Assembly: GCF_013410775.1 (NCBI RefSeq)
Contig: NZ_JACCFH010000001.1
Span: 3,658,001-3,722,000 of the forward strand
Length of the DNA stretch: 64,000 nucleotides
Source: Sphaerotilus montanus
Lineage (GTDB): Bacteria; Pseudomonadota; Gammaproteobacteria; Burkholderiales; Burkholderiaceae_C
Direction of reading: 5' to 3'
The notes beneath the pieces are model-generated. The model saw nothing but the letters and a program-made list of their open reading frames with translations, was not told the origin of the DNA and searched no databases. The translations under genes and the position numbers were made by a program. This document shows, piece by piece, positions 22,620 through 31,867 of the stretch. Every line of letters begins with the position of its first letter. Position 1 is the stretch's first letter.

Positions 22620-23579
22620 ATGCAATTTGCCGACCACACCGACGATCCCGAAGACACCGAATACTCGGCCGAGGAGCGCGCTGCCGCCGCCGCACGCAGC
22701 ACCTGGGTCAGCGTGGTCGTCAACCTGTTCCTGACCGCCCTGCAGATCACGGTCGGCATCGTGGCGAAGTCGCAGGGTCTGGTGGCGGACGGCATCCACT
22801 CGCTGTCCGATCTGGTGGCCGACTTCGTCGTGCTGGCGGCCAACCGGCAAAGCCAGCGCGGTGCCGACGACAGCCACCCCTACGGCCACCAGCGGGTCGA
22901 GAACGCGGCCTCGCTGGTGCTGGGTGCGCTGCTGCTGGCGGTCGGCATCGGCATGGTCTGGTCGGCCTTCCAGAAACTGCAGTCGCCCGAGACGGTCGCC
23001 CCGGTGGGCATCGTCGCGCTGTGGGTGGCGGGTGCGGCCCTGCTCGCCAAGGAAGCGCTGTTCCGCTACATGCTGGCCGTGGCCAAGCGGGTCAAGTCCA
23101 GCATGCTGGTGGCCAATGCCTGGCACGCGCGCTCGGACGCGGCCTCGTCGCTGGTGGTGGGCATCGGCATTGCCGGCAACCTGCTGGGCTACCCGATCCT
23201 CGACCCGATCGCCGCGCTCATCGTCGGCTTCATGGTCGGCCGCATGGGCTGGGAGTTCGGCTGGGAGGCGATGCACGACCTGATGGACCGCGCCATCGAC
23301 GACGAGGAGGTCGCTGCCATCCGCCAGACGCTGGTCGAGACGCCGGGCGTCAGCGGCGTGCACGACGTGCGCACCCGCAAGATGGGCGACATGATCGTGG
23401 TCGATGCCCACATCGAGGTGGACGGGACGCTCACCGTCGAGCAGGGCCACGACATCGCCGTCGAGGCGCGCCACCGCGTGCTGCAGCGCCACCGCGTGCT
23501 CAACCTGATGACCCACGTCGATCCGTGGCACCGCCCGGACCGTGACCACGGGCCGCAGGCGGTGTCGGCCAACGGCTGA
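22620..23579 (+). CDS. Cation diffusion facilitator (metal efflux) transporter
   Basis: The 319-residue protein has the six-helix CDF membrane domain (about 28-215) with metal-site motifs DGIHSLSDLVADFVV near 59 and AWHARSDAASSLVV near 164, then a cytoplasmic C-terminal domain with DVRTRKMGDMIVVDAHIEVD. Relatives (FieF/YiiP type) export Zn, Fe, Mn or Co by proton antiport; the metal cannot be told from sequence alone. It lies 19 bp behind eda but has no metabolic link to it; the closest functional fit is the metal/redox genes that follow. Confidence 0.9.
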   Translation: MQFADHTDDPEDTEYSAEERAAAAARSTWVSVVVNLFLTALQITVGIVAKSQGLVADGIHSLSDLVADFVVLAANRQSQRGADDSHPYGHQRVENAASLVLGALLLAVGIGMVWSAFQKLQSPETVAPVGIVALWVAGAALLAKEALFRYMLAVAKRVKSSMLVANAWHARSDAASSLVVGIGIAGNLLGYPILDPIAALIVGFMVGRMGWEFGWEAMHDLMDRAIDDEEVAAIRQTLVETPGVSGVHDVRTRKMGDMIVVDAHIEVDGTLTVEQGHDIAVEARHRVLQRHRVLNLMTHVDPWHRPDRDHGPQAVSANG

Positions 23580-23594
23580 GGGACGGGATTCCAG

Positions 23595-23611
23595 CTTCAT
23601 TCAGGCTTCAT
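23595..23611 (+). promoter_or_regulatory. Direct-repeat response-regulator box, CTTCAT-N5-CTTCAT
   Basis: Two identical CTTCAT half-sites at 23595-23600 and 23606-23611 have an 11-bp period, the geometry used by OmpR-family regulators such as PmrA and QseB (CTTAAT-N5-CTTAAT). It precedes the operon that encodes just such a regulator, so autoregulation is likely. A similar box lies before the multicopper oxidase. Confidence 0.6.
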
Positions 23612-23697
23612 GTCGGATGGATTCAATGCGTTCATCGACTCCCGGCCAGGGGATCGATGGACCTCGAAACGCAATCCACTCCCTCAGGAAACTCCGC

Positions 23698-23955
23698 ATG
23701 AACAAGATCCTCGCCCTCATCGCCGCCCTGCTGACCGCCACGGGCGCCATGGCGGGCCCGGCCTGCACCGCCACCGAAGACAAGTGGATGAAGGAAGCCG
23801 ACTTCAAGACCAAGATCGAAGGTCAGGGCTACACCATCAAGACCTTCAAGGTCAGCAAGGGCAAGTGCTACGAGATCTACGGCTTCGACAAGGCTGGCAA
23901 GAAGGTCGAGATCTACTTCGATCCGGTCACCGCCGCCCCGCTCGAATCGAAGTGA
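23698..23955 (+). CDS. Small periplasmic PepSY-type protein
   Basis: The 85-residue protein has a signal peptide (MNKILALIAALLTATGAMA, cleaved before GPAC) and a single PepSY-like unit: EADFKTKIEGQGYTIKTFKV, KGKCYEIYGFDKAGKKVEIY, FDPVTAAPL. Two cysteines could form a disulfide. Start ATG 23698 was chosen because it gives the signal peptide. Small PepSY proteins often accompany a cytochrome b561 and a two-component system, as here, and are thought to influence periplasmic sensing or redox; their exact role is not established. Confidence 0.82.
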   Translation: MNKILALIAALLTATGAMAGPACTATEDKWMKEADFKTKIEGQGYTIKTFKVSKGKCYEIYGFDKAGKKVEIYFDPVTAAPLESK

Positions 23956-23985
23956 TCTTTCCCCGATCCTGACCGGGCAGACGCC

Positions 23986-24537
23986 ATGAGCACCATCCCC
24001 CACAACCCAGAAGAACCCCAGGGTGCCGTGAAAGTCTGGGATCCGTTCGTGCGGGTCTTTCACTGGAGCCTGGTCAGTTGTGTGCTGCTGAACTATTTCG
24101 TCATCGATGATGGCGAAACCATCCACCAGTGGCTCGGCTACGTGGCCAGTGCCCTGGTGGTGATGCGCATCGTGTGGGGGTTCATCGGCACCCGCCATGC
24201 GCGTTTTGCCGACTTCTTTCCGACACGGGCCCGCCTGCGCGCCCACATCGTGGCGATGCGCAGCGGGAAGGAAGCATCCCATGCCGGTCACAATCCGCTC
24301 GGCGCGCTGATGATGCTGGCGCTGATGGCGGTGGTGCTCGGCCTGGGCGTGACCGGTTTCCTGCAGACGACCGACACCTTCTGGGGTGAGGAGTGGCTGC
24401 AGGATCTGCACGAGGTGCTGGGCTCCGCGTTGATCGCGCTGGCGGGCTTGCACGCGGCTGCGGCGATCATCATGGGTCGCATCGAGCGCACCAACCTGGT
24501 GGCCGCGATGGTCACCGGCGTCAAGCAGCGGCGCTGA
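23986..24537 (+). CDS. Cytochrome b561-family membrane protein
   Basis: The 183-residue protein has four membrane helices with histidines placed as haem ligands: RVFHWSLVSC near 23, IHQWLGYVAS near 46, DLHEVLGSAL near 145 and GLHAAAAI near 158. This is the Ni,Fe-hydrogenase cytochrome b/b561 family that moves electrons across the inner membrane. It follows the PepSY gene by 30 bp and precedes the response regulator by 50 bp, forming one operon. A likely job is electron exchange between the quinone pool and a periplasmic acceptor. Confidence 0.88.
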   Translation: MSTIPHNPEEPQGAVKVWDPFVRVFHWSLVSCVLLNYFVIDDGETIHQWLGYVASALVVMRIVWGFIGTRHARFADFFPTRARLRAHIVAMRSGKEASHAGHNPLGALMMLALMAVVLGLGVTGFLQTTDTFWGEEWLQDLHEVLGSALIALAGLHAAAAIIMGRIERTNLVAAMVTGVKQRR

Positions 24538-24587
24538 ACCCGTTCCGTTCACCACGGAACCGAACGACGACCGAAGGGCGAGACACC

Positions 24588-25247
24588 GTGCACCTGCTGC
24601 TGCTGGAAGACGATCCCACACTGGGTGAAGGACTGCGCGACTACCTGCGCAGCGAGGGGCATGTCGTGGACTGGTGCCTGCGCCTGAACGATGCCGCGGT
24701 GCTGCTCAGCGAGCCCTATGACGCGCTGCTGATCGACTGGCAATTGCCGGACGGCAGCGGGCTGGACTGGCTGCGGCGTCTGCGCCAGCGCGGTCTGACC
24801 ACGCCGGCGCTGATGCTGACGGCGCGTGACCTGCTCAGCGACCGGGTGCGGGGACTGGACGCCGGGGCCGATGACTACCTGGTCAAGCCCTTCGAGCCCG
24901 AAGAACTGGCCGCGCGGCTGCGCGCGGTGTGCCGCCGCACGGCGGGAACGGGCGGCGAGCGGATCGAATTCGGTGCGGTGCAGGTCGATCTCACCGCCAA
25001 GGCTGTCTGGCACGCGCAGGTCCGTGTCGATCTGACGGCGCGGGAATGGGCGCTGCTGGAGGCGCTGGTGCTGCGCGCCGGGCGCATCGTGTCCCGCAGT
25101 GACCTGGACAGGCTGGTCATCGGCCAGGACGCCGAGGTGTCCAGCAATGTGCTGGAAGTCCACATCTCCAACCTGCGCCGCAAGCTCGGGCGCACGTTCA
25201 TCGAGACGGTGCGCGGCCTGGGTTACCGCGTCATGCCGTGCGCGTGA
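24588..25247 (+). CDS. OmpR-family response regulator
   Basis: The 219-residue regulator has a receiver domain (LLLLEDDPTLGEGL; phosphorylated Asp50 in LLIDWQLPDGSG; Lys near 98 in VKPFEPEEL) and a winged-helix DNA-binding domain (about 125-217) ending NLRRKLGRTFIETVRGLGYR. The start is a GTG at 24588; the longer ATG frame upstream overlaps cytochrome b561. It resembles QseB/TctD-type regulators. Direct-repeat boxes before its own operon and before the multicopper oxidase operon are its most likely targets. Confidence 0.92.
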   Translation: MHLLLLEDDPTLGEGLRDYLRSEGHVVDWCLRLNDAAVLLSEPYDALLIDWQLPDGSGLDWLRRLRQRGLTTPALMLTARDLLSDRVRGLDAGADDYLVKPFEPEELAARLRAVCRRTAGTGGERIEFGAVQVDLTAKAVWHAQVRVDLTAREWALLEALVLRAGRIVSRSDLDRLVIGQDAEVSSNVLEVHISNLRRKLGRTFIETVRGLGYRVMPCA

Positions 25248-26635
25248 GGCCACCCCTGTCGATCCGTCGGCGCATGCTGGCGTCGCTGCTGTGGGTGTCG
25301 GTGGTCTGGGGCGTGGTGGCGCCGCTGACCGTGGTGCTGACGATCCGCCACGAGATCAACGAACTGCTGGACGACACGCTGCGGGCCTCTGCGCAAGCGT
25401 TGTCGGGGGTGCTGAAGGGCACGCTGCCGCTGGGTTCGCTGCCCCATGTGCCGGGTGGCGCGACCATCAGCCCGGCGGGTGACTTCGTGCGCGGGCGATT
25501 CGCCTGGCAACTGGTCGGTCCGGGGGCGGATGTGGAGTTTCATTCACCGCACGCGCCCGAAACGGCACTGATGCCGCGTCCGAGCATCGGCTTTGCCAAT
25601 TCAGCCCTGGGCTGGCGTGTGCTCGGCGTGGCGATCGGCCACCAGGGCCACGTGCTGTACGTGGCGCAGACGCTCGACGAGCGCACCGAGGCGCTGCGTG
25701 ACGCTGCCCTGAACACGATGATGGCCTCGCTGTCGGTGTGGGCGGTGTGCCTGGTGGGGTTGCTGCGGCGCATGCGCTCCGAGCTGGCGCAGATCGACCG
25801 GCTGGTGGCGGATGTGCAGGCCCACGATCCGCTGGATGGCACGAAGACGCTGCCGCCGGTGACCCGGGAAGAGTTGCGCCCGATCCGCGACGCGATCGAC
25901 GACCTGGGCAGCCGGCTGGCGGTGCGGGTGCGCAACGAGCGGGCGTTCACCGCCCATGCGGCACACGCGCTGCGCACGCCTCTGGCCGGCATGGACGCAC
26001 AACTGGCGGTCGCGCTGCGCGAGTGCGCGCCTGCGCAGCAGCCTCGCCTGCAGCGCGTGCGCGAGGCGGCCCGGCGATTCGCGCGGGTGGTGAGCGCGCT
26101 GCTGACGCTGTTCCGCAGCGGGGCCGAACTGCACCGGCAGCCGGTCGATGTCGCGACCCTGCTGGCGCGCATGCCGGTGGCGAGGCTGGAGGTGCGGCTG
26201 GTCGACGCCCCGGGCGAGGGCCCGATGGTGGTGCCGGACGCCGATCCCGACCTGCTCGCGGCGGCGCTGGCGAACCTGCTCGACAACGCGGTGCGGCATG
26301 GCGCCCGGTCGGTCGAGGTGGGGGTGGATGCGCAGTCTGCGGGCGGGTGGTGCCTCCGGGTGACGGATGACGGGCCGGGCCTGACCCCCGACATGCTGCA
26401 GACCCTGCAGGCCACGCTCGATCAGGAGGACTACTCGGCGCTGTCCGGCCTGGGTCTGATTCTGGCGGACCTGATCGCCCGCGCGCACGGGGGGCGTCTG
26501 CACCTCGACCACGGCCCGTCGGGCAACGGGCTGCGGGTGGAGATGACGCTGGCCCGTGACCGGTCCGCGGCCCGCCTCACTCGGGGACGAACCAGTCCCC
26601 TTCCGGCTGCAGCCGTGCGTGACGAGGATCGGTGA
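25238..26635 (+). CDS. Sensor histidine kinase
   Basis: The 465-residue kinase has a membrane helix at about 13-35, a periplasmic segment to about 158, a second helix at about 160-176, a HAMP-like linker, and a dimerisation domain with the phosphorylated histidine at His243 (AAHALRTPLAGM). The ATPase domain follows, with LANLLDNAVRHG, VTDDGPGLTP and LGLILADLIARAHGG. GTG 25238 overlaps the regulator's stop by 10 bp; a second GTG at 25244 would give a 4-bp GTGA overlap and is equally plausible. The 3' end overlaps the convergent cytochrome gene by 59 bp. The signal may be copper, another metal or a redox cue, judged only from context. Confidence 0.9.
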   Translation: MRVRPPLSIRRRMLASLLWVSVVWGVVAPLTVVLTIRHEINELLDDTLRASAQALSGVLKGTLPLGSLPHVPGGATISPAGDFVRGRFAWQLVGPGADVEFHSPHAPETALMPRPSIGFANSALGWRVLGVAIGHQGHVLYVAQTLDERTEALRDAALNTMMASLSVWAVCLVGLLRRMRSELAQIDRLVADVQAHDPLDGTKTLPPVTREELRPIRDAIDDLGSRLAVRVRNERAFTAHAAHALRTPLAGMDAQLAVALRECAPAQQPRLQRVREAARRFARVVSALLTLFRSGAELHRQPVDVATLLARMPVARLEVRLVDAPGEGPMVVPDADPDLLAAALANLLDNAVRHGARSVEVGVDAQSAGGWCLRVTDDGPGLTPDMLQTLQATLDQEDYSALSGLGLILADLIARAHGGRLHLDHGPSGNGLRVEMTLARDRSAARLTRGRTSPLPAAAVRDEDR

Positions 26636-28259
26636 ACCGCATCAGCCAGGTGCCCTGCGAGCCGTGGCGCCGGCCCGGGCCCAGGGTGAAGCGGGGGTAG
26701 GCGGTGGCGGTGGCCGCCTCTTCGGCCCCTTCGAGCAGTTCGGCGAGGTAAGCCCGGCTGACGCGCGCGCCCATGCGGCGCAACGCGTTGGCGGTCACTT
26801 CGCAGGCCGAATAGGTGTGGCCTTGCAACCGGATCAACGCCGGGTCGCTGGCCAGTGCGCGCTGGTGCGACTGCAGCCACTGGCCGACGTTCTGCGCCAC
26901 GCGGGGCAGGTGGCGCTCGATGGGTGCATAGGGCCAGGTCAGCTGGACGGCGGCCCGCCAGGATGGCGCCACGGCGCCCGCGTCCAGGTCGATCAGCTCA
27001 CCCGATGCGAGCACGCGCGGTGCCCCCGGAGGGGGCTCGTGCCGTGTGGTCCACGCGGACAGGGCCATGCCCGGCAGCCACAGGGCCAGCGCATCGTGTT
27101 TCCCCAGGCCCGACAACCATGCCGCGGTGTCTGGTGCGTCCGGGGCATGGACCCACCACTCGGGGCGGCGGACCACCGGACGGGTTCCCAGGCGTTCGAC
27201 GAGGCGGCGGGCTCCGATGGCCGCTCCTTCGTGGCGGGGTTCGACGACGAGGTGGATCTGTCGCCAGCCGCCGGGCGGGGCGTGCTCGACCAGCACCTCG
27301 GCCATCGTGGCCGCGTCCAGGCTGACACCACGTGAAAAATGGAAGGACCAGACCGAGGGCTGGCTGTCGTCGACCGAGGCGGTGTTGGGCAGCACGCAGG
27401 GCAGGGCGTCGCGTTCGCAGTGCTGCTGGATGGCTTGCCAGGCGCCACGCCCGGTCGGGCCGGTGATGCCCGAGACGAGGGCGAACACCGGCTGCTGGCG
27501 CTGCAGCGCCTCCAGCTCGGTCGGCCAGCGCGCCGGGTCGGCGCCGAGCTGCCAGCGGTGCAGGGTCCAGGCCGGCGGGGCGTGCGGGCTGTCCTGCGCT
27601 GGCGGGCTGCGCTCGGCCATGCACTGGACGAGCAGGTCCGTGGCCGCCTGCCGCACGGCCGGCGTGTTGTCGGCGGTCTCGATCGTGGCCAGGTGCAGGG
27701 TGCGGCCGTCGTGCCCCGGTGCTTCGCCGATGCGCAGCGTCGTGGTGTAGGCGGCCAGGTCGCGCACCTCGGCCTCGGTGAGCTGGTAGCGTGGCATCAG
27801 CGCATCCATCGACTGCCCGGTGGGGCCGATGCCCCGGTTCAGTGCACGCAGCAGCGTTTCGAGCGAGTAGGCCGGGCGGATCTGGGCTGCAGGAGCCTGT
27901 CGGGTCAGGTGGGAGAAGACGCGTGGCTGGCGTGGCTGGACCGGCCGACCGGGTGCAAAAAGGATGCTGCCGACGATCGGCGGCACGGCCGTGCTGCCCT
28001 CGGCGCCACCCATGCCGCTGGCCCGGTGGCACTGGATGCAGGCGGCCTCCTGGCCCTGCACCGCCACGCCGTTGCCGCGCTGTGCTTCCACGGGCGAACG
28101 ATCGGCGCGCAGCCCTTCGCGAAAAAGCTGCGCGCCCCGGGTGACTGCGCTGTCGGCCTGTGCGGCGGGTTCCTCGGGGCGGGCCTGCCCGGCGGCGAGC
28201 CCGGTCAGCAGGAGCAGCCCCACCCGAAGGTACCGGGTCGCCCGGCGCGCCGTGGTCAT
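26577..28259 (-). CDS. Cytochrome c fused to a periplasmic substrate-binding-like domain
   Basis: The 560-residue protein has a signal peptide (about 1-26), a class I cytochrome c domain with haem site CIQCH (Cys74, Cys77, His78) and a later MDALMPRY segment that may supply the methionine ligand. The rest (about 190-560) resembles a type 1 periplasmic binding fold of the branched-chain amino-acid receptor family: VFALVSGITGPTGRGAW, IHLVVEPRHEGAAIGARRLV, WLMRFTD. Its ATG overlaps the SCO1-like stop by 4 bp. It may pass electrons to or from the multicopper oxidase while binding a ligand; that is inference. Confidence 0.8.
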   Translation of the reverse strand: MTTARRATRYLRVGLLLLTGLAAGQARPEEPAAQADSAVTRGAQLFREGLRADRSPVEAQRGNGVAVQGQEAACIQCHRASGMGGAEGSTAVPPIVGSILFAPGRPVQPRQPRVFSHLTRQAPAAQIRPAYSLETLLRALNRGIGPTGQSMDALMPRYQLTEAEVRDLAAYTTTLRIGEAPGHDGRTLHLATIETADNTPAVRQAATDLLVQCMAERSPPAQDSPHAPPAWTLHRWQLGADPARWPTELEALQRQQPVFALVSGITGPTGRGAWQAIQQHCERDALPCVLPNTASVDDSQPSVWSFHFSRGVSLDAATMAEVLVEHAPPGGWRQIHLVVEPRHEGAAIGARRLVERLGTRPVVRRPEWWVHAPDAPDTAAWLSGLGKHDALALWLPGMALSAWTTRHEPPPGAPRVLASGELIDLDAGAVAPSWRAAVQLTWPYAPIERHLPRVAQNVGQWLQSHQRALASDPALIRLQGHTYSACEVTANALRRMGARVSRAYLAELLEGAEEAATATAYPRFTLGPGRRHGSQGTWLMRFTDPRHARLQPEGDWFVPE

Positions 28260-28924
28260 GGGGCTGTCGCGAACGCCACACGCAGCAACTCGTCGGGCGT
28301 CGCGTAGCCATCCAGCCGCCGCCACTGCCCCGGCGCGCTGCCTTTCGGGCGAACAAAGGTCACGGGGGTGTGGCCCATCTTGTCGGGGCGGTAGACGTTG
28401 AAGGCGCGCTGCACGGCATCGATCGCGTCGGTGCTGCCCGTGTGGAAGCGCCACTGCGCACCCGCGCTGAACCGCGCCGCGTAGTCGCGCAGCCGTGCCG
28501 GGCTGTCGTGCTCGGGGTCGATCGAGACCGACACCATCTGCACCTGCTCGCGGCGTGTGCCCAGCCGATCCTGCAGCGCCGCAAAGATCTGCGACATCGG
28601 TGGACACACGGTCGTGCAGCTGGTGAAGATGAAGTTGAGCAGCACGGGCCGCTGCGCGTCCAGGCTGGTGGCGAACTCCACCGACGGCCCGCTGTGGCTG
28701 CGCAGGCGCACCGCGGGCAGGCGCACCGTCACGGGCAGGCTTGCCCCCGCGCTGCTGGCGGTGGTCACCGGCGGTGTCAGGCAGAGATCCTCCAGCGGGG
28801 TCTGCACGGGCGCCGAGGGTGGGCGTGGTTGCGCCTGGGCCGCCGACAGACCGGCTGCCAGCAGGCTCGGCACCACCCACCTGGCGGCGCGGGAAGCGAT
28901 CCTCCCGCAGCGTCGCGCGGCCAT
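28256..28924 (-). CDS. SCO1/SenC-like copper chaperone
   Basis: The 222-residue exported protein has a signal peptide (about 1-32) and a thioredoxin-like domain with the SCO copper motif CTTVC (Cys103, Cys107) in FIFTSCTTVCPPM, DPEHDSPARLRDYAARF, and a later histidine in DKMGHTPVTFV. SCO proteins deliver copper or reduce thiols, classically for the CuA site of cytochrome oxidase. Here no oxidase subunit is near; the neighbour is a multicopper oxidase 5 bp upstream, so metallating that enzyme is the likely job. The stop overlaps the cytochrome c gene by 4 bp. Confidence 0.88.
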   Translation of the reverse strand: MAARRCGRIASRAARWVVPSLLAAGLSAAQAQPRPPSAPVQTPLEDLCLTPPVTTASSAGASLPVTVRLPAVRLRSHSGPSVEFATSLDAQRPVLLNFIFTSCTTVCPPMSQIFAALQDRLGTRREQVQMVSVSIDPEHDSPARLRDYAARFSAGAQWRFHTGSTDAIDAVQRAFNVYRPDKMGHTPVTFVRPKGSAPGQWRRLDGYATPDELLRVAFATAP

Positions 28925-28929
28925 GGCGC

Positions 28930-30783
28930 TCAGGCGACGACGAAGCGCCGCATCATCTCGTGGTCTTCGTGCGAGAGGATGTGGCAGTGCCAGACGTATT
29001 CGCCCGGCCGGTCGAAGCGCACCAGGATCCGCGTGATCTCGCCCGGGTAGGCCACGACCGTGTCCTTGCGACCGGCTTCGTTCGGCTCGGCGGGCCGGGC
29101 CGGGCCGAGCGTGGTCACGCCGGTCAGCCAGCCGCCCACGGTGCTGCCACCCGCGCCCATGGGCTTGGGCACGACGACGCCGTCGAAGGCCTGGCGGTTC
29201 AGCACCCGGAAGGCGGTCTGGTGCAGGTGGATCGGGTGCGCGTCCACGGTGGTGTTGTGGAACTCCCAGAGCTCGGTGCTGCCGAGGGCCATGCGCTCGG
29301 TGACCGGGTCCGAATAGAAGAAGGTGCCGTGGGCGGGGCTGGTCGGGTTGCCTGCGGCAGGATTCACCGTGCCCAGCAGGGTCTGCAGGCGGTTGTAGGG
29401 ATCGACACCCTCGACCAGCAGCAGCTTGCGCACGGGAACGCCGGCCGTCACAAGGGCTGGCAGCGGGCCGAGCACGGGCCGCAACGATGCCGGCAGCGTG
29501 GTGTGGGGGCGCTGCGTGTCCAGGGCGAGGCTGACGGGGAAGGCCATGATCTGCCCCGCTGACGCGGGATCGACCGGGGCACCGAAGGGGAACGGCGTCG
29601 GCGCGGTGTTGACCAGCGTGATCCGCTGCCCGGCCAGTCCCCTGAAGCTCACGACCAGGTCCGCCCGTTCGCCCGGTGCCAGCACGAGGTGCGTCAGCGG
29701 CACCGGCGCGTTCATCAGGCCGAGTTCGGTGCCCACCTGGTGGAAGGCCAGGGTGTTGCCGTCTGCGCGCCGGAACTGCAGGTCGTAGAACCGCGAGTCC
29801 GAGCCGTTGAGCACCCGCAGCCGGTATGCGCGTGGTTCCACCGCGTGCTGCGGCCAGGGCACCCCGTTGACCAGGATGAAGTCGCCGAAGAATTCGGGCA
29901 GATGGGTGGTGCGGGGGGCGCTCGGATTGAGCGGGTCGGTCGAGGGGTAGAACAGCCGGCCGGTGCTGTCGAACATCCGGTCCTGGATCACGAGCGGCAC
30001 TTCGTAGGGGCTGGCAGGCAGCCGGTTGCGCTGCAGCAGCCAATCCTCGTTGGCATCGCGGATGAAGTAGTGCCCGGCCAGCCCCATGAACACGTTCAGC
30101 CGCGTCACGCCCAGGGCGTGGTCGTGGTACCAGAGGTGCCCGGCTTCCTGCTGGTGCTGGTAGGTGTAGGGGGTGCTCCAGAGGCGCCCGGCGTAGTCGG
30201 GTTGTCCGTCCAGGTTGCGGTCCGCGGTGGTCCATGCATCCGGCAGGCCATCGGTGATGGTCGGCTGGTCACCGCCATGGCGGTGGGCCACCAGTGGCAC
30301 GGGCGCCAGACCTCCGAGGTTGCCCGGATTGGCCCACATCAGCGTGGTGTCCAGTGGCAGCCGGTAGCCGAGTTGGCGAGGGCCGGCGCCCAGTTGGTTC
30401 ACGTAGCTGACGGTGATCTTGCTGCCGGACCGGACCGAGAAGCTGCGACCCGGTGACGTGGGCGACTGCGTCGGGGTGCCGTAGCCCCAGAGCACGGTGG
30501 AGAGCTTGTTGCCAGCGGGCGATACCAGTCCGATCTGGCTCACGAATTCCCGCAGCAGCAAGGTGTAGCTGCTTCCACCGGGCGTCGTCGCCGCGAACGC
30601 ATTGAGCGGAGCGTTCGGGTTGGGCAGTGGCTGGACGAACTTGGGGTGGCTGCCGCCTTGCAGGAGCTGGGTCCCTGTGGTGACTTGACCCGCTGCGGTT
30701 TGCGCGTTGGCGGTGCTCAGAGAGGTCGTGGCGCCCAGACTGGCCACCGCGCCACGCTTCAAGATGCTGCGTCGACTGATCAT
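28930..30783 (-). CDS. Multicopper oxidase, CotA/bilirubin-oxidase-like, Tat-exported
   Basis: The 617-residue protein begins with a twin-arginine signal (SRRSILK, then a hydrophobic stretch to about 27). All four copper-ligand blocks are present: HRHGG (His167, His169), HLWYHDHALG (His220, His222), HPIHLHQTAF near 520 and HCHILSHEDHEMM near 599-611, with the methionine axial ligand of the type 1 site. It should oxidise a phenolic or metal substrate and reduce oxygen to water in the periplasm. CotA-like enzymes can oxidise Mn(II) or Cu(I); specificity is not visible. It heads an operon with SCO1 and the cytochrome c fusion. Confidence 0.93.
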   Translation of the reverse strand: MISRRSILKRGAVASLGATTSLSTANAQTAAGQVTTGTQLLQGGSHPKFVQPLPNPNAPLNAFAATTPGGSSYTLLLREFVSQIGLVSPAGNKLSTVLWGYGTPTQSPTSPGRSFSVRSGSKITVSYVNQLGAGPRQLGYRLPLDTTLMWANPGNLGGLAPVPLVAHRHGGDQPTITDGLPDAWTTADRNLDGQPDYAGRLWSTPYTYQHQQEAGHLWYHDHALGVTRLNVFMGLAGHYFIRDANEDWLLQRNRLPASPYEVPLVIQDRMFDSTGRLFYPSTDPLNPSAPRTTHLPEFFGDFILVNGVPWPQHAVEPRAYRLRVLNGSDSRFYDLQFRRADGNTLAFHQVGTELGLMNAPVPLTHLVLAPGERADLVVSFRGLAGQRITLVNTAPTPFPFGAPVDPASAGQIMAFPVSLALDTQRPHTTLPASLRPVLGPLPALVTAGVPVRKLLLVEGVDPYNRLQTLLGTVNPAAGNPTSPAHGTFFYSDPVTERMALGSTELWEFHNTTVDAHPIHLHQTAFRVLNRQAFDGVVVPKPMGAGGSTVGGWLTGVTTLGPARPAEPNEAGRKDTVVAYPGEITRILVRFDRPGEYVWHCHILSHEDHEMMRRFVVA

Positions 30784-30801
30784 GCTGTCCCTCAGAAAAA
30801 G

Positions 30802-30818
30802 CTGAAGACAGTGTGAAG
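30802..30818 (-). promoter_or_regulatory. Direct-repeat response-regulator box before the multicopper oxidase
   Basis: On the minus strand CTTCAC-N5-CTTCAG (half-sites 30813-30818 and 30802-30807) has the same 11-bp period and near-identical sequence as the box at 23595-23611. It lies about 20-35 bp before the oxidase ATG. A related GTTCAC (30822-30827) and another CTTCAC (30842-30847) are found further upstream in the AT-rich leader. Confidence 0.55.
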
Positions 30819-30897
30819 TTTGTGAACTAATCCCTCAATACGTGAAGATATTTTTAGCCATTGACACAACAGGGTATTAATTCTCGGTTCAGTCGAA

Positions 30898-31755
30898 CTA
30901 TTTCGAACGCTTTTCAAGAATGAAATTGGCCCCGGCGTACTGCCCCAGGGTCTCGGTGAGCACCGGCATCACCTCCTGCAGCATCGAATGCAGCACGAAC
31001 GGTGGATTGATCACCAGCATCCCGCTGCCGAGCATGCCGAAGCCGCTCTGGTCCGGCTCGGCCACCGACATGCGCACATGCACCCAGCCGCGCTTGGCCT
31101 GCGCGTCTGCCGCGGCCTTGAGCCGGTCGGTCATCTCCTTGGGTTCGAGTCGCTGCAACTGCGGATACCACACCAGGATCACGGCGTCGGCGAAGCGCTC
31201 CAGCCCGTCCCGCACGGCGGCGACCACCTTGGTGTAGTCGGTCTTGATCTCGTAGCTCGGGTCGATCAGCACCACGCCGCGGCGCGACGGGGGCGGCAGT
31301 TCGGCCTTCAGCCCCGCGAAGCCGTCGGAGTTCATCACCGCGGTTTCGCGGCGGGTTTCCAGCGCGGTCTGCAGCAGCGGGAAGTCGGTCGAGTGCAGCT
31401 CGTACAGGCGCATCCGGTCGTCGGCGCGCAGCAGCATCTGGGCGAGCGCGGGCGAGCCGGGGTAGCGCGTCAGGCGGTCGGGCTGCGGGTTGAAGCGGCG
31501 CACCAGCGCGAGGTAGTCGTTCAGCGCGGCGGGCAGGTCCTTGCGGCCGAACAGGCGGCCCACGCCGTCGTCGTACTCGGCGTGCTTGCGGGCGTGGTTG
31601 CTGTCGAGGCCGTAGCCACCGGCGCCCGCGTGGGTGTCGACGAGGGTGAAGGGCTTGTCCTTTTCCGCCATGTAGCGGAGCACCTGCGTGAAGACGAGGT
31701 GCTTGAGGACATCGGCATGGTTGCCGGCATGGAAGGCGTGTCGGTAGGCGAGCAT
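30898..31755 (-). CDS. rlmJ: 23S rRNA (adenine2030-N6)-methyltransferase RlmJ
   Basis: The 285-residue enzyme methylates A2030 of 23S rRNA. It shows the family start MLAYRHAFHAGNHADVLKH, TLVDTHAGAGGYGLD for S-adenosylmethionine binding, and the catalytic motif as DPSYE (usually DPPYE) near 163. The start at 31755 was preferred over 31794 because relatives begin MLxYRHxFHAGN. It is divergent from the CoA-transferase gene and 114 bp upstream of the multicopper oxidase, which has its own promoter region. Confidence 0.95.
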   Translation of the reverse strand: MLAYRHAFHAGNHADVLKHLVFTQVLRYMAEKDKPFTLVDTHAGAGGYGLDSNHARKHAEYDDGVGRLFGRKDLPAALNDYLALVRRFNPQPDRLTRYPGSPALAQMLLRADDRMRLYELHSTDFPLLQTALETRRETAVMNSDGFAGLKAELPPPSRRGVVLIDPSYEIKTDYTKVVAAVRDGLERFADAVILVWYPQLQRLEPKEMTDRLKAAADAQAKRGWVHVRMSVAEPDQSGFGMLGSGMLVINPPFVLHSMLQEVMPVLTETLGQYAGANFILEKRSK

Positions 31756-31867
31756 GGCGGGATTGTCGCTGCTTCCCGCCGTGATGGACATCAAGGCTTG
31801 TGCATGGCCGGATGGGGGAGGAGGTTCCTAGAATGGGCGACTGTCTCTATCAATACAAGGATTTGCC

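Follow-up and report, generated by a model that had tools for sequence, protein, structure and literature searches.

In a 64,000-nucleotide window of the Sphaerotilus montanus genome (contig NZ_JACCFH010000001.1, positions 3,658,001 to 3,722,000), a direct repeat, CTTCAT-N5-CTTCAT, lies before an operon encoding a small secreted PepSY protein, a cytochrome b561, an OmpR-family response regulator and a sensor histidine kinase. A similar repeat, CTTCAC-N5-CTTCAG, lies before a neighboring multicopper oxidase cassette. Comparison with related genomes makes it quite probable that the PepSY operon is autoregulated and that the oxidase cassette is independent, with a CTTCA pair that would be a coincidence or a gain private to the species. 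As judged from sequence, the PepSY-operon repeat is conserved and very likely serves as the switch at which the operon's own regulator acts, and the predicted autoregulation is well supported by conservation. The observations behind this are that the repeat and its distance to a -10-like element are conserved, that the repeat is kept where no regulator adjoins the PepSY gene, and that the same repeat precedes regulator orthologues.

Conservation of the PepSY-operon repeat

The repeat (CTTCAT-TCAGG-CTTCAT) occupies positions 23595 to 23611 on the plus strand. It covers the -35 position, and a -10-like element, TTCAAT (23622 to 23627, plus strand), lies 10 base pairs (bp) past its second half-site; a strict consensus scan did not report this element. 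A protein search found PepSY matches in 44 of 399 family genomes and 23 of 141 genera, and the leaders at 30 of the 49 listed places were studied (loci L051-L080, the window's own among them). The pair NTT(A/C)A-N6-NTT(A/C)A, with an 11-bp phase, was present in 28 of the 30 leaders (27 of 29 excluding the window), at -87 to -124 relative to the matched start. The pair was followed by (A/C)A(A/C)T at a fixed distance in 26 of 30 (25 of 29 excluding the window), a count that leaves out L055 and L057, which by eye have TAAT at the -10-like place. Resampled leaders gave expectations of 0.155 of 30 for the pair and 0.0 of 30 for the pair with its -10-like tail, values that are not p-values because the pattern was drawn from these leaders and the leaders are not independent. 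The reversed pair, taken as a control, occurred in 0 of the 30 PepSY leaders. Within the 64-kb window, the PepSY site was the sole match to the conserved box and promoter geometry.

The repeat was also found in genomes with a different arrangement of the operon. In two relatives, G159 and G160 (G numbers denote genomes and L numbers loci), the gene order was CDF-PepSY-b561-RlmJ, and CTTCA-N6-CTTCA was retained before the PepSY gene in both. No regulator or kinase was found beside PepSY in either genome at 1e-8, and the orthologues were located on other contigs. The CDF transporter, PepSY-b561 and RlmJ genes, which lie within 22620-31794 of the window, are still neighbors in G160 and G159. In G011, the PepSY and regulator genes were on separate contigs, each preceded by a pair.

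Regulator orthologues of at least 60% identity were collected from 30 loci (L009-L026 from 150 family genomes and L039-L050 from 13 genus genomes). TTCA-N7-TTCA occurred at most 250 bp from the regulator start in 23 of them, with an expectation of 0.07 over the 29 that have Ser, Phe or Ala at residue 195 (PmrA numbering). Orthologues that lack an upstream PepSY gene carry the CTTCA pair before the regulator gene itself; it runs reversed there, as CTGAAG-N5-CTGAAG, and one orthologue holds both orientations. Some orthologues carried two to four tandem copies, several of them three or four. Six of the remaining seven orthologues had a pair before an upstream PepSY gene, and in L011 and L013 the second half of the PepSY pair was CTTAA. 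A pair therefore stood before the regulator or before PepSY in 29 of the 30 loci, the exception being L040, which ends at a contig edge. The linked regulators and PepSY boxes varied together.

The genes behind the repeat are all on the plus strand. The PepSY protein (23698-23955) has 85 residues and matched PepSY_2 at 3.3e-28, and the cytochrome b561 family membrane protein (23986-24537; 183 residues) matched Ni_hydr_CYTB / prokaryotic cytochrome b561 at 7.2e-28. The OmpR-family regulator (24588-25247), with the recognition helix SSNVLEVHISNLRRKL, falls in the PmrA/QseB/BqsR group: it has a receiver and a winged-helix domain in Pfam, it is nearest to the PmrA type, and its best solved relatives are BasR/PmrA (8jo2, 4s04; 8.7e-54). 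Its best NCBIfam match was the PmrA equivalogue NF007928, although the score of 211.9 bits was below the curated cut-off of 330. The kinase (25238-26635; 465 residues) contains HisKA and HATPase_c, and the alignment placed an ExxE motif, HEINE, directly past the first hydrophobic stretch; its best NCBIfam match was QseC, below the cut-off. Operators of the PmrA/QseB/BqsR group are direct repeats of about 5-6 bp in an 11-bp phase over the -35 position. The PepSY repeat has this form, with the phase as in BqsR, while its half-site, TTCAT, differs from the TTAA(G/T) of the group.

By analogy with PmrA and BqsR, the operon might be switched on by class II activation. The kinase, whose activity the PepSY protein may adjust, would phosphorylate the PmrA/BqsR-like regulator. 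Two regulator molecules would then bind head-to-tail on CTTCAT-N5-CTTCAT, covering the -35 position, and the bound regulator would draw RNA polymerase to the -10 element, TTCAAT. We infer both the binding and the activation by the operon's regulator.

The oxidase cassette and its leader

The second repeat (CTTCAC-ACTGT-CTTCAG) lies at 30802-30818 on the minus strand. The genes that follow it, on the same strand, encode a CotA-like multicopper oxidase (28930-30783; Cu-oxidase_2; closest among solved structures to spore coat protein A, 9bd5, 1e-88), a SCO1/SenC protein (28256-28927; 5.4e-21) and a protein of 560 residues with a cytochrome c domain (26577-28259; Cytochrom_C, 3.4e-05). In the last of these, about 380 further residues, forming the C-terminal part, had no match in Pfam, NCBIfam or solved structures at E up to 1. 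Both repeats and the gene content of both operons were as described in the initial annotation, which had proposed that one OmpR-family regulator controls the two operons through a shared box. The PepSY side of this proposal was upheld, in that the box there appears to be a conserved OmpR-type site for which the operon's regulator is the natural candidate. Control of the oxidase operon by this box was not upheld: the annotation had itself named, as a refutation, a box that is not conserved where relatives share the genes, and the oxidase box is of this sort.

The main comparison was with G156, whose genes are arranged as in the window (CDF-PepSY-b561-regulator-kinase-cytochrome-SCO-oxidase-RlmJ). 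The oxidase leader of G156 is TTCACGAAATTCACACTGGTTGCTCGC, and that of the window is TTCACAAACTTCACACTGTCTTCAGC. ATTCAC and then GTTGCTC stand at the place of CTTCAC-N5-CTTCAG, and the second half-site is missing. G156 keeps the PepSY box and loses the oxidase pair, so the same operator does not precede both operons in this relative that has both. A CTTCA pair on the oxidase strand was present in 0 of the 14 other oxidase leaders studied (G156, G160, G152, G345 and, from 80 named loci, the ten that ranked next, L249-L258). A shared regulon acting through 30802-30818 was rejected as the principal interpretation because of the half-site lost in G156 and the result in these 14 leaders.

A promoter-like element, TTGA(C/G)N, 17 bp and (A/C)ACACT, was kept in the oxidase leaders of the window, G156, G160 and G152, that is, in four of four genus orthologues. 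In the window it consists of the -35-like TTGAGG (30833-30838) and the -10-like CACACT (30810-30815), both on the minus strand, and the latter overlaps the first half of the second box. Placed after the second box with PepSY-type spacing, a -10 element would land in the ribosome-binding sequence and the oxidase start codon.

The cassette also proved to be a separable neighbor of the regulator, since it is absent in G155 and located elsewhere in G160, G152 and G345. G155 has PepSY-b561-regulator-kinase followed by RlmJ, and no oxidase match was found elsewhere in this genome, which is 83% complete. In the other three genomes, the oxidase-SCO-cytochrome genes lie in other surroundings. Of 13 genus genomes, 4 have an oxidase orthologue of at least 73% identity, counting that of the window. 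A search at 1e-80 matched the protein in 4 genomes out of 399 of the family, and one of these matches stood at only 45%. Genome position 2972344 holds a 44% oxidase paralogue preceded by a SCO-like gene.

The frequency of the motif was assessed at several scales. The window contains two CTTCA-N6-CTTCA pairs against 0.07 expected, and 1 of 100 shuffles reached two. Genome-wide there were nine occurrences at seven places, compared with six for the reversed pattern, and over the 13 genus genomes there were 106 compared with 47 reversed. The motif alone is therefore no proof of function. The genome-wide pairs were likewise dismissed as a list of regulon members, which would be weak because nine stand against only six reversed. 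Within the 114-bp oxidase leader, the resampled chance was 0.0009 for the exact CTTCA pair, 0.017 for TTCA-N7-TTCA and 0.27 for a direct repeat of whatever 5-mer with a period of 10-12 bp. For an observer who starts from the PepSY box, the match is unlikely, and much less so for one scanning for any repeat.

The other five places in the genome (L001-L004 and L008) were without a PepSY-type tail by inspection. L008 holds three tandem CTTCAGGCGCA units at about 1501-1527 (genome position 4594250), between an acyltransferase-like and another open reading frame (ORF). Seven loci were viewed from the 10 genus genomes with a match at this place, and among these seven a pair was present only in the window's genome. 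G156 and G155 have a single CTGAAG there, and the triple in L008 therefore looks like an 11-bp tandem expansion. Elsewhere, CTTCA repeats were seen in L150 (2351-2378) and L151 (2322-2349), with two overlapping pairs each, and in L152 (2186-2201), with one pair. The repeats precede a small lipoprotein-like ORF and are conserved among G154, G160 and G159; the ORF upstream of them is presumably PHA-synthase-like.

Several observations weigh against an autoregulated PepSY operon beside an independent oxidase cassette. The PepSY leaders L071 and L072 lack a strict pair (TTTAA then GCTAA), and the leader pattern was shaped on the same, related leaders in which it was counted. The genome encodes other PmrA-like regulators, with five matches at 1e-40. 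The PepSY box might be bound mainly by one of these, and PepSY relatives elsewhere do keep boxes of a similar kind where the adjoining regulator is more distant or there is none. However, two paralogues examined from the genome have other residues at the contact positions (HH in locus L195, SR in locus L225), SR regulators pair with GTTCA and H195 regulators with A-containing pairs, and close orthologues of the operon's regulator have the CTTCA pair before themselves. A different main binder thus seems unlikely to us. On the oxidase side, the non-conservation of the pair rests mainly on one syntenic relative, G156. The promoter-like element was not reported by a strict sigma-70 scan and was absent from 11 leaders outside the genus. 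The low chance of the exact pair in the leader leaves some probability for a private gain in the species.

In a single regulon, as in the initial annotation, the regulator would bind 30802-30818 too and govern the oxidase operon of this species; it might do so as a repressor, since the site overlaps the -10-like element. Both halves fit the half-site CTTCA(C/G) of the regulator group, the exact pair is rare by chance, and the two operons adjoin in the window and in G156. We consider this improbable nonetheless, given the missing half in G156, the absence of the pair from the 14 other leaders, a position that overlaps the -10-like element and has no space for a -10 with PepSY-type spacing, and relatives whose cassette is found apart from the regulator or whose regulator has no cassette next to it. 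Control of the oxidase operon through a different site has a similarly small probability. A weak reversed pair, ATTAA-N6-GTTCA (30876-30892, plus strand), lies upstream of the promoter-like element, and a reversed TT(A/C)A-N7-TT(A/C)A was present in three of four genus leaders (resampled chance 0.012-0.027 each). Its halves are ATTAA/GTTCA in the window, TTTAA/GTTCA in G156 and TTTCA/CTTCA in G160, and its start-to-start distances to the -35-like element are 37, 38 and 47 bp, respectively. The orientation is that of the pair before the regulator gene in orthologues. Against this, the pair was found after the fact, and neither G152 nor the 11 leaders outside the genus have it; the window and G156 are not independent, and their halves match CTTCA poorly. 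The CTTCA pair in the oxidase leader is probably a coincidence or a private novelty of the species.

Recognition-helix residues and half-site letters

The PmrA box is CTTAA, whereas the half-site here is CTTCA. In a study of PmrA/BasR of Enterobacteriaceae (PMC4660055), a PmrA dimer binds tandem half-sites head-to-tail, with base contacts from N188 and N196 and hydrophobic contacts from T187, V192 and H195. The window's regulator, for which PmrA is the nearest solved relative, keeps N188, V192, N196 and R210. It differs from PmrA in having Ser in place of T187 and H195.

Residue 195 and the half-site letters were compared over 122 regulator loci (42, and 80 more among the matches listed). Counting (C/G)TTNA halves at most 350 bp away, two C halves were found with 26 of 40 S195 regulators, 2 of 4 with Phe, 2 of 2 with Ala, 1 of 9 with Tyr and 0 of 67 with His, among the matches listed; A-containing pairs accompanied 6 of the 67 H195 regulators. 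With any first letter and at most 250 bp, the 67 H195 regulators had AA in three cases, AC in four and CC in one. The S195-R196 regulators had GTTCA pairs in 6 of 10, and so did three A-R regulators beside PepSY in one genus. Where F195 was combined with Lys or His at 196, all six of six PepSY leaders carried a (C/T)TTCA/CTTAA hybrid.

A specificity code for PmrA/QseB/BqsR regulators of the family might be drawn from these data, in which residue 195 dictates the half-site's fourth base and residue 196 its first. Residues other than His at 195 would specify CTTCA and His A-containing halves, Phe with Lys or His at 196 the CTTCA/CTTAA hybrid, and Arg196 GTTCA. We hold this only tentatively, and the code is a lead rather than a result. 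Exceptions were L217 (H, with CC), L190 (S-R, with AC), and L075 and L077 (H-N beside CTTCA/ATTCA and CTTCA/CTTCA). CarR/BqsR is N-H, yet it has TTAAG. Most H195 leaders were without any pair, which also counts against the code. On the regulator tree, residue 195 and the box letter could be compared in only three independent pairs; averaged, 2.5 of the 3 showed them changing together and none in the opposite sense (p 0.25).

Relation to known PepSY and two-component systems

The ExxE motif of the kinase was kept in 20 of 23 readable orthologues; two further rows, of 25 in all, were left out because their frames were misread. Similar helices are common in this kinase family, and ExxE may be a structural trait of it. 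In BqsS of Pseudomonas aeruginosa (PaBqsS), ExxE lies past the first membrane helix, as in our kinase, and serves Fe(II) sensing (PMC12666569). This likeness to an iron-sensing relative points weakly to iron as the signal. No evidence was found for the copper or manganese signal suggested in the initial annotation, and the electron wiring of the two operons that it also suggested is hypothetical.

The PepSY-b561-regulator-kinase module belongs, as a variant, with the DbfQRS/BqsRS systems. Two-component systems accompanied by PepSY proteins are described as widespread across phyla and little understood (PMC12714742). In DbfQRS of Vibrio cholerae, a small secreted PepSY gene lies upstream of the regulator and kinase, and the promoter appears to be positively autoregulated, as is predicted for the window; the small PepSY protein DbfQ binds its kinase and biases it toward phosphatase activity (PMC12714742). 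That the PepSY protein of the window acts on its kinase in the same way is a guess from this analogy. The window has a small PepSY gene at most four genes from a kinase/regulator pair, the arrangement used to define DbfQRS-type systems (PMC12714742). It differs from DbfQRS in the b561 gene between PepSY and the regulator and in a PepSY_2 protein of 85 residues compared with the 135 of DbfQ (PMC12714742).

The likeness to BqsR/BqsS (CarR/CarS) of P. aeruginosa extends to the operator. BqsR recognizes TTAAG-N6-TTAAG, which overlaps the -35 and is functional only with 6-bp spacing (PMC4682146). A pentamer pair with a 6-bp spacer over the -35, sometimes in tandem arrays, is common to both systems, and the PepSY proteins PA2658/PA2659 are encoded alongside BqsR/BqsS (PMC12714742). 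In contrast to BqsR, the window pentamer is TTCAT/TTCAG, with C and not A as its third base, and the recognition helix has S195-N196 where the CarR structure 9yfa has N-H. In the literature searched, which did not cover subscription journals, we found no paper joining PepSY, cytochrome b561 and a two-component regulator/sensor histidine kinase, and none combining a CTTCAG/TTCAG direct repeat with a response regulator in Burkholderia.

In this case, a plausible shared regulon dissolved on reading one syntenic relative. The finding adds a PepSY/two-component variant with a b561 cytochrome, in sheath-forming metal-oxidizing bacteria (Sphaerotilus/Leptothrix), with an operator that predicts targets. 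If the covariation between helix and half-site is causal, it would offer a test of how regulators within a family keep clear of one another's sites, and helix switches, if the code is true, would allow paralogous systems in one cell to be insulated.

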